In this document: one piece after another, positions 35,271 to 37,854 of the stretch
Position numbering within the stretch: position 1 is the stretch's first letter
How the letters are laid out: every line of letters starts with the position of its first letter
Assembly: GCA_013365325.1 (NCBI GenBank)
Contig: JABVXV010000219.1
Span: 1 to 64,000, forward strand
Reading direction: 5' to 3'
From: Dipetalonema caudispina
Taxonomy: Eukaryota; Nematoda; Chromadorea; Rhabditida; Onchocercidae
Length of the DNA stretch: 64,000 bases
The notes under the pieces: generated by a model
What the model was told of the DNA's origin: nothing
Databases searched by the model: none
The model's input: the letters and a program-made list of their open reading frames with translations, nothing else
Made by a program: the position numbers and the translations under genes

Positions 35271-37854
35271 TTATAAATGAAACTGCTTCAAAGAGTCGAG
35301 AACATCAAGATACAGACTGACATCAGCACTCAACAGCTTCATTTCTTCAACCACCGATAAATCCCTCTCGTCCTCTGTAGATGTGAGTTGCACATCAAGC
35401 ATTTCGTTACATTTTTCAATTGTCGCCAACGCCTGAAAACACTAATTAAAAGCCATCAGCTCGCATTAGACAAACTTTAGTATAGAAAGAAAAAATAAGG
35501 GTAATACGCTGCTTAAAAAACGCCACTTACTCCTTTTGACACTAAAATTTTTGCTAAGACTCCTTCATCTACAGATTCAAGCTCCATTATGGCTTTATCA
35601 GTTTCTGGTTCAGCAATCACATCACCTGACTTTGTCTTGTTCTTCTTGAAAATTTGATCTCTTCCTTTCACAATCAATGAGGGTCGGAAAACTTCATCAG
35701 CTTAGTTCAATTTCCAAGAAGCATTTCATCACTTATGAGATTAATAAGAATGATCTTTGAAAAACTGGATAACTAAATGAAGCGGTTACTTTCCCGATAT
35801 TATCTATTCTCTCGTTGAATCCAGCAAGTTCCTCATGTAATTCCTGCTTAGCTTTCTGTTGCTGCTGCTCAACACTGTCTAACAAATCCTGAAAAGCAAA
35901 AATAGTAAAAGTGAAGGAACATCCTTATCAATGGAAACAAATGAAAACTGTTAATTCATAAAAGAATTTCTTGCAGTAATTTCGGACGAATGCAGTTGCA
36001 AAAAGATTTACCAAACAGTGTAACAATATTATTTACTAAAATATAGCAATTTGAATATTGAAACATTTGTCTTGAACTATGCCCTCGCTTAATTTTAGAC
36101 AATTGAAGGTTGAGAGATCCTCAAGATTTCTTTTCTGTTATAGATTATATACAACTAACAACGGTGGCCAATAGGAATCCACAACCTATGCAAGTGCTTG
36201 AATTGCACTTCATATTATTACACATTTCGAAATTACTGAGCTGAATTTCATGATGCCATCTTGAAATTTCTTACAAAAAAAATTGTTGAAAATACCTCAA
36301 TTCTTTGCTTTTCGAAACTTCGCAGTACATCAATTTCAATCAGCGATACTGCATTCTGCAGGAGCGCTGTAGCAGCTGCCTCATGCTCTTTTGCCTTCTT
36401 TCCCATACGTCTGATAACATAGTCTGATTTGACGAGTGCTTCCTGCGCCTTAAATTAAAAAGAAATTTGAAATTCTGAAGTTGCCTGAGGAGCGAAAAAT
36501 TATGCCCATTTGAAAGTGAAGAACCTGAAATGGAAGTGAACGAAAATCAAAAAAGAGCTTAGTTTTACTATTCTAAAAGAATTTTGTATTAAATGTGTGA
36601 AAGAAAATCAAATGCTTAACAGAAAGAGCAGCTTTTTAGTATGACCAACTATTTATTTATATATCCTACACATTCCATTTTTGCTATCTTTCATACTGTG
36701 AAGGTAAATGAGCAGCAACTAGACAAGAAATGTGGAAATGAGAGCTTAAGCTCACTTCCCAACGTATTGTAGACAACGTTTCAGGATTAGCTTTTCTGTA
36801 TTCATAGCGATAAGGAAGCAAATGCTTATAAAGTAAACGTTTTCTGATCATTCAGCCAGCATGAAACGAATTTACACCTGATTTTAAGAATTAAACATAA
36901 AAAGTAGCAAAAAATACATTAGTAAATTAATACCTCACATAAGCGTACGATTTGTTCGTTGTGTTTGTTCTTCTTCGCACGAAGTTCTACAAGCTGCACC
37001 GAAGGAATTCGTTTTCTATGCGTATCGACAACAGATTTCTGCTTCTGAAATTGCAAAAATTGAAAACTTTTTCTTCTTGATAAACAATTATCATGAATGT
37101 AATGTACTTAAATTATTTTTGATCAGCTAGATAATGGTGATAATGTCTCCTGCATTCATTTATTAAAATTCCACTATATGAATAAATTGCCCATTCGTGT
37201 TGATTTCCGAAATGGATGAGAAGTACATTGGAGTGAAACATATAATAAAAGAGCGAAAGACAATTTCCTGAAACAGCGTAACATACCTTTGAAATACTCT
37301 GATCAGAAGCTGAATGTTGTTTTGGCAGATTGCATTTAGAAGATGGTAATTTCGGAGTTGCGAAGGTGACATGCTGCAGCGATATACACTTTTTTTTTCT
37401 TCAGTTAAAAGTAAACATCCTATTCATAGTTGTTTCTTATCATTCACTTACATGAGCTCACTCAAAATTGCCAGATTTCTTGAGATATATGATTTATCTG
37501 AGACAAAAGTTCCTCGCGGGGCTTATTCGTCTAAATTCTTCTTGCAAAGGAATTATCCTTCATCAGAAATTCCATAAAAATTTCAAAATTTATGATACTT
37601 CTTTTATCGATGAAAAATTTGCGTAGTGAAAAAAGGGTGATACTTTTCATGTCTTCGTCATAAAGCTAGAAGTATCAATCGCACTTTTCTTTTTTTTTTT
37701 TTTTTTGAAATTACTTCAAGGAATACTCATAAGAAATAACGAGTTAAAGATATACTCGCTTAGCATCCGAATCCCTAGATCGAGCTTGAGCTTGTGCTGG
37801 TTGTTTCTTAAGCGATGGTCGTAGAACTGTTGTTTCACGTGATTTGTTTGACAT
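35271..37854 (-). CDS. unknown helical protein, lipoyl-like exon inside
   Basis: Exons 37854-37756, 37373-37287, 37044-36934, 36448-36296, 35888-35790, optionally 35644-35531, and 35432-35271 all join in phase 0 and give 274 residues (236 without the optional exon). The N-terminal third is basic and low in complexity ([20 protein letters not shown]). From [20 protein letters not shown] onward it is predicted mostly helical, with coiled-coil character ([40 protein letters not shown]). I do not recognise the family. The ATG directly follows an acceptor (GATTACAG), so it is either a trans-splice start or not the first exon: a phase-0 63-nt candidate at 38134-38072 (VTLPEEQSDVWRRLVDSINN) may lie upstream. 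The optional exon encodes an alphaproteobacteria-like lipoyl fragment, described separately. Confidence 0.7.
35510..35690 (-). other. alphaproteobacterial-like E2 lipoyl-domain fragment
   Basis: The minus strand reads, without a stop from about 35690, [20 protein letters not shown], then [20 protein letters not shown] and [15 protein letters not shown] before TAA. ETDKA is the lipoyl-lysine hairpin of pyruvate dehydrogenase E2. The flanking [17 protein letters not shown] and the continuation SKGVSGV follow the Rickettsiales/Wolbachia form; animal mitochondrial E2 typically has ETDKATMGFE...EEGYLAKI. Only about 55 residues (half a lipoyl domain) are present, and the rest of E2 is missing. The match runs past the predicted splice donor, as expected for an inserted DNA piece rather than a domain that evolved with the exon. 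The origin is inferred from family knowledge, not from a search. Confidence 0.6.

Follow-up and report, generated by a model that had tools for sequence, protein, structure and literature searches.

The host gene and its last intron

The window, by which we mean the whole 64,000-nt stretch of Dipetalonema caudispina contig JABVXV010000219.1 that was analysed, carries on its minus strand a gene that is conserved among filariae and whose last intron contains a short piece of a Wolbachia pyruvate dehydrogenase E2 gene. The exons and the last intron of the host gene were placed by comparison with filarial orthologs:

37756..37854, minus strand: exon 1, beginning with ATG
37287..37373, minus strand: exon 2, its start set by the ortholog residues HVTFA
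36934..37044, minus strand: exon 3, first one or two residues uncertain
36296..36448, minus strand: exon 4; the acceptor at 36448 seems, from the orthologs (most of which read AQEALV or similar), to be of the AAG type (TTTAAG)
35790..35888, minus strand: exon 5, ending in NIGK
35433..35789, minus strand: last intron, 357 nt, phase 0, donor GTAACC, acceptor TTTTCAG, placed from the exon ends of the orthologs
35274..35432, minus strand: exon 6, from ALATIEK to KQFHL, followed by the stop codon

A protein search with this gene gave 11 matches, all of them filarial and from 10 named species, which are 70-82% identical to the host protein in the alignment; the closest is that of Cercopithifilaria johnstoni (82%). 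The protein is probably a coiled coil, judged by eye. No Pfam family scored above its cut-off, and the matches to solved structures are weak (best E = 0.0073). Ten of the 11 ortholog proteins cross the exon 5/6 junction directly, joining IGK or IEK to AL or ML without any insertion. The remaining protein (P0010) comes from Wuchereria bancrofti and is misannotated into the intron; a second protein of the same species (P0011) crosses normally. The ortholog proteins are predictions and the comparison is one of proteins, not of intron sequences. Elsewhere in the window, a single 808-codon open frame (42560-40137, minus strand) lies just downstream, in the sense of the transcript, of what look by eye like EF-hand-like calcium-binding repeats.

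A Wolbachia E2 fragment in the intron

A minus-strand open frame of 62 codons (35701-35516) lies in the last intron and has lipoyl-type residues in its second half. The features recognized there are:

35520..35647, minus strand: fragment of a Wolbachia pyruvate dehydrogenase E2 gene (second half of the lipoyl domain), a nuclear Wolbachia transfer (blastn, 84% identity; nhmmer)
35495..35519, minus strand: possible, weakly similar continuation of the fragment (nhmmer alignment and a relaxed blastn alignment to locus L007; anchored extension not significant)
35627..35629, minus strand: approximate site of a 5-bp gap relative to Wolbachia E2 (alignments)

Over 128 bp (35647-35520) the minus strand and the E2 gene carried by the Wolbachia strain of Onchocerca ochengi are identical in 112/133 alignment columns (129 bits), with the 5-bp gap as the only one inside the fragment. 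Scores of 98-119 bits were obtained with four further loci of Wolbachia or Rickettsiales, and all 40 Wolbachia E2 sequences compared, several of which are copies of one genome, match the fragment at the DNA level. A DNA profile (nhmmer) built from 33 Wolbachia E2 segments with their flanks, taken from 32 genomes (L006 and L138 are one locus), recovers the fragment with E = 3.4e-35, and the second-best hit in the window lies at E = 2.2.

The first-pass annotation had described about 170 bp of an E2 sequence that encodes half a lipoyl domain and is closer to Rickettsiales than to animals. The half domain is borne out by the Pfam profile Biotin_lipoyl, which gives 30.6 bits and covers positions 26-61 of 73. 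The lysine of the ETDKA motif, i.e. the lipoyl lysine, is kept, and the complete domain around it is absent. The affinity is likewise upheld (see below), and the extent has to be shortened. The open frame as far as 35701 has a suggestive look; homology to E2 across it was rejected on the basis of anchored alignments and nhmmer. The nhmmer alignment ends at 35647 and the residues upstream of it carry no detectable E2 homology. Anchored alignments upstream of 35650 are not significant (best score reached in 12/100 shuffles), and at the protein level the score of the upstream extension was equalled or passed in 329/1000 shuffles. In the downstream direction the anchored alignments fare no better (11/100 shuffles at best). 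From these alignments the Wolbachia-derived part measures 128 bp and possibly up to ∼ 153 bp (to 35495).

Affinity and divergence of the fragment

In a tree of 27 distinct rows including the fragment (34 before identical ones were dropped) and 129 alignment columns, the fragment groups with the Wolbachia of O. ochengi (80% ultrafast bootstrap) on a branch of its own of 0.083 substitutions per site. Two details of the translation, ELES and GVS, are common to the fragment and the O. ochengi strain; L118 and L111 have ELES as well, and L133 has GVS. Raw identity is similar for many Wolbachia strains and does not separate them: strain L127 is slightly nearer to the fragment than the O. ochengi strain (16 versus 17 differences in 129). 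The divergence between the fragment and every one of the 33 Wolbachia E2 segments is 12% or more. The O. ochengi strain is listed under supergroup C (PMC12693587). The same source reports nuclear insertions derived from supergroup C in all the filariae outside the clade of Brugia and Wuchereria and describes the outgroup Setaria as being without credible ones; an affinity to supergroup C, if firm, would fit the reported spread of such insertions over most filariae (PMC12693587).

Among the 129 columns, six bases of the fragment are found in none of the 33 Wolbachia segments. All six lie at codon positions 1 or 2 and none at position 3, a distribution that has a probability of 0.088 under neutrality with so few changes. 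Two of them sit at the edge of the fragment, one is next to the gap, and another two fall within the same codon. Together with the 5-bp gap these changes look like neutral decay, on a small sample.

Splice-like motifs within the fragment

The segment had also been proposed to lie inside a nematode gene and to have been captured by it as an exon, flanked by an acceptor-like site and a perfect donor:

35531..35644, minus strand: hypothetical cassette exon of 114 nt (38 residues), acceptor TTTTCAAG, donor GTAAGT; the sequence is present, is absent from all 10 junction-crossing ortholog proteins and has no support for its use

Much of this description stands. The last base of TTTTCAAG, an 8-mer, is at 35645 and the first of GTAAGT at 35530, and the 114 nt between them (35644-35531) are open and of phase 0 on both sides, as is the host intron. 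GTAAGT is closer to the donor consensus than the GTAACC that serves as the real donor of the intron; the same position reads GTAAGC in the O. ochengi Wolbachia strain. The acceptor is present and acceptor-like, except that TTTTCAAG ends in AAG instead of the usual consensus CAG. The location within a nematode gene is also correct, but the segment is intronic.

Cassettes of this kind were counted in the window and in 10 dinucleotide shuffles. Under a strict definition (acceptor matching TTTTCAG in at least 5/7 positions, exact GTAAGT, 60-200 nt, open) the window has three, that of the fragment included, versus 0.7 on average and never more than 2 in the shuffles. With the looser donor GTA[AT]GT the numbers are 3 and 1.9, and with GTA[AT] they are 64 and 31.8. 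Since the other two strict cassettes in the window may be real exons, the shuffles neither prove nor exclude that the cassette arose by chance.

Origin and fate of the fragment

Very probably the fragment is a nuclear Wolbachia transfer (nuwt) that lies in an intron of a conserved gene, has decayed neutrally and is spliced out with that intron. We envisage that part of an E2 gene reached the nucleus of the germ line from a Wolbachia that infected this filarial lineage and was most like a supergroup C strain. Presumably during DNA repair, this piece would have become integrated into an intron of a conserved and probably coiled-coil gene and have decayed neutrally since. The host transcript most likely carries the piece only as intron sequence, which would be removed with the 35789-35433 intron. 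Two other sources of the fragment were considered. One is the nematode's own gene for mitochondrial E2 or E3BP, of which the fragment might be a stray copy; a general match to the lipoyl family would be expected in that case too. The best DNA match is nevertheless to Wolbachia and not to the genes of the host: the nuclear lipoyl exon of the worm itself, on contig C304, aligns with the fragment in 60/84 positions and scores 54 bits, versus 112/133 and 129 bits for Wolbachia. These values contradict such a copy, the ELES and GVS details shared with the O. ochengi strain speak against it, and we give it next to no probability. The earlier proposal that endosymbiont DNA had moved into the nucleus is supported. 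Reads of a live Wolbachia that were wrongly joined into a worm contig, by assembly error or contamination, are a very improbable source. The fragment is only 128 bp long and is flanked on both sides, at the level of the assembly and on one contig, by a single host intron and by exons of one conserved gene in their proper order. The distance of at least 12% to every Wolbachia segment and the 5-bp gap argue in the same direction. Moreover, 35520-35647 is the sole place in the assembly to match the 6.1 kb that surround E2 in the O. ochengi Wolbachia, so that the fragment is not accounted for by a live Wolbachia contig there and does not belong to a live Wolbachia genome in the assembly. Bacterial 16S was not found in the assembly (5/272 first-look candidates scored), which does not show that the worm was uninfected.

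Inclusion of the segment in some transcripts as an alternative cassette exon of 114 nt and 38 residues, with or without a function, is unlikely. It would be favoured by the GTAAGT donor, the TTTTCAAG acceptor, the phase of 0 on both sides and the lack of a stop codon; an AAG acceptor seems to be used at exon 4 of the same gene, and the strict cassette count of the window was not reached in any of the 10 shuffles. There are also precedents for transcription. Hybrid Wolbachia-nematode transcripts have been published for O. flexuosa (17 isogroups and four singletons), and the majority apparently could not yield a functional product (PMC3458923); many nuwts are transcribed: among the pieces tested, 30/42 of Acanthocheilonema viteae and 56/87 of O. 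flexuosa were expressed as RNA, about half being from pseudogenes (PMC2882956). Against inclusion, the cassette segment is absent from all 10 junction-crossing ortholog proteins, although an exon specific to this lineage would be absent from them too, and the six unique changes, few as they are, give no sign of codon constraint. The open frame needs no selection because it was inherited from the bacterial coding frame. Half a lipoyl domain is not expected, from the known fold, to fold or to be lipoylated, and 38 additional residues would probably break the heptad register of the host protein. Exon capture of the Wolbachia segment is thus not supported, and the more specific version of it, a young facultative cassette exon in which bacterial coding sequence supplies the donor and creates a lineage-specific isoform of a filarial protein, is if anything slightly less likely again. 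If RNA showed inclusion, this would clearly be an animal gene that had received a splice donor and an in-frame exon from bacterial coding sequence. As an intronic nuwt, the fragment is one more trace of an earlier infection with Wolbachia in a filarial species.

Nuclear Wolbachia sequences in this and other filariae

Exons that derive from insertions of organellar DNA (numts, nupts) were reportedly described by Noutsos and colleagues, whom the authors of PMC2882956 cite. The mechanism is the one put forward in the first-pass annotation, and it was already invoked for filarial nuwts in PMC2882956, where Wolbachia-like pieces in filarial genes are proposed as possible new domains. The exon idea is therefore already in print as a proposal; the present fragment differs from the organellar cases in that its use as an exon is not supported. 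It shares with the O. flexuosa hybrids the combination of Wolbachia-like and nematode-like sequence in one transcription unit, and a domain-like contribution was proposed for them too, but the hybrids were observed at the RNA level and confirmed by PCR on genomic DNA (PMC3458923), whereas the fragment is known from DNA only. The insertion is not named in the titles or abstract openings surveyed, and neither PMC2882956 nor PMC3458923 uses the word 'pyruvate' in its main text; single nuwts are listed in supplementary tables, and we do not claim that the insertion is unpublished.

The mean length and identity of Wolbachia-like pieces are 159 bp and 78% in A. viteae and 174 bp and 81% in O. flexuosa (PMC2882956), and most nuwts have been described as fragmented or nonfunctional (PMC5310847, PMC12693587). 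The E2 fragment resembles them in being short (∼ 130 bp), ∼ 84% identical, truncated, gapped and nuclear, and in having other such matches in the genome. It differs in lying within an intron and in happening to hold in-phase splice-like motifs. Nuwt junctions of B. malayi are depleted in introns and UTRs, yet they are present there (PMC3849323).

The assembly that was searched comprises 78,057,119 bases in 764 contigs. Lipoyl/biotinyl matches that pass the Pfam cut-off number three in it, the fragment included. In the window, blastn and tblastn with 800 of the 958 kb of the O. ochengi Wolbachia found no Wolbachia fragments beyond E2; the remaining blastn matches, at E 0.024 or worse, do not surpass what a control with reversed sequence gives (E 0.007 or worse). 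Two 20-kb queries from the O. ochengi Wolbachia gave six and five matches in the assembly, on 11 different contigs and with E2 included, which is an upper figure for nuwts. On these sequence matches, the E2 scrap is one among a set of mostly small Wolbachia-like pieces in the genome. Given the dispersed matches and the published sizes and identities (PMC2882956), the fragment fits a known kind and is an ordinary nuwt.

A cytochrome b match on contig C663 was rejected as a nuwt; it is probably mitochondrial, and the contig also carries COX1. The latter (G000:C663:354-1694) has three in-frame TGA codons, and the mitochondrial genome seems to be present in the assembly. A second cytochrome b match and one match to a DnaK-like gene are possibly not nuwts. 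Two separate pieces, G000:C399:131676-131999 (80%) and G000:C88:89474-89736 (69%), match the same Wolbachia gene, which by eye resembles virB4 (VirB4-like). A much longer stretch of 1.75 kb (G000:C33:295714-297467) is 68% identical to a Wolbachia region that seems by eye to contain folate-synthesis genes; to our knowledge, neither these nor VirB4-like genes are expected to have a nematode counterpart, and the stretch is perhaps a much larger nuwt.
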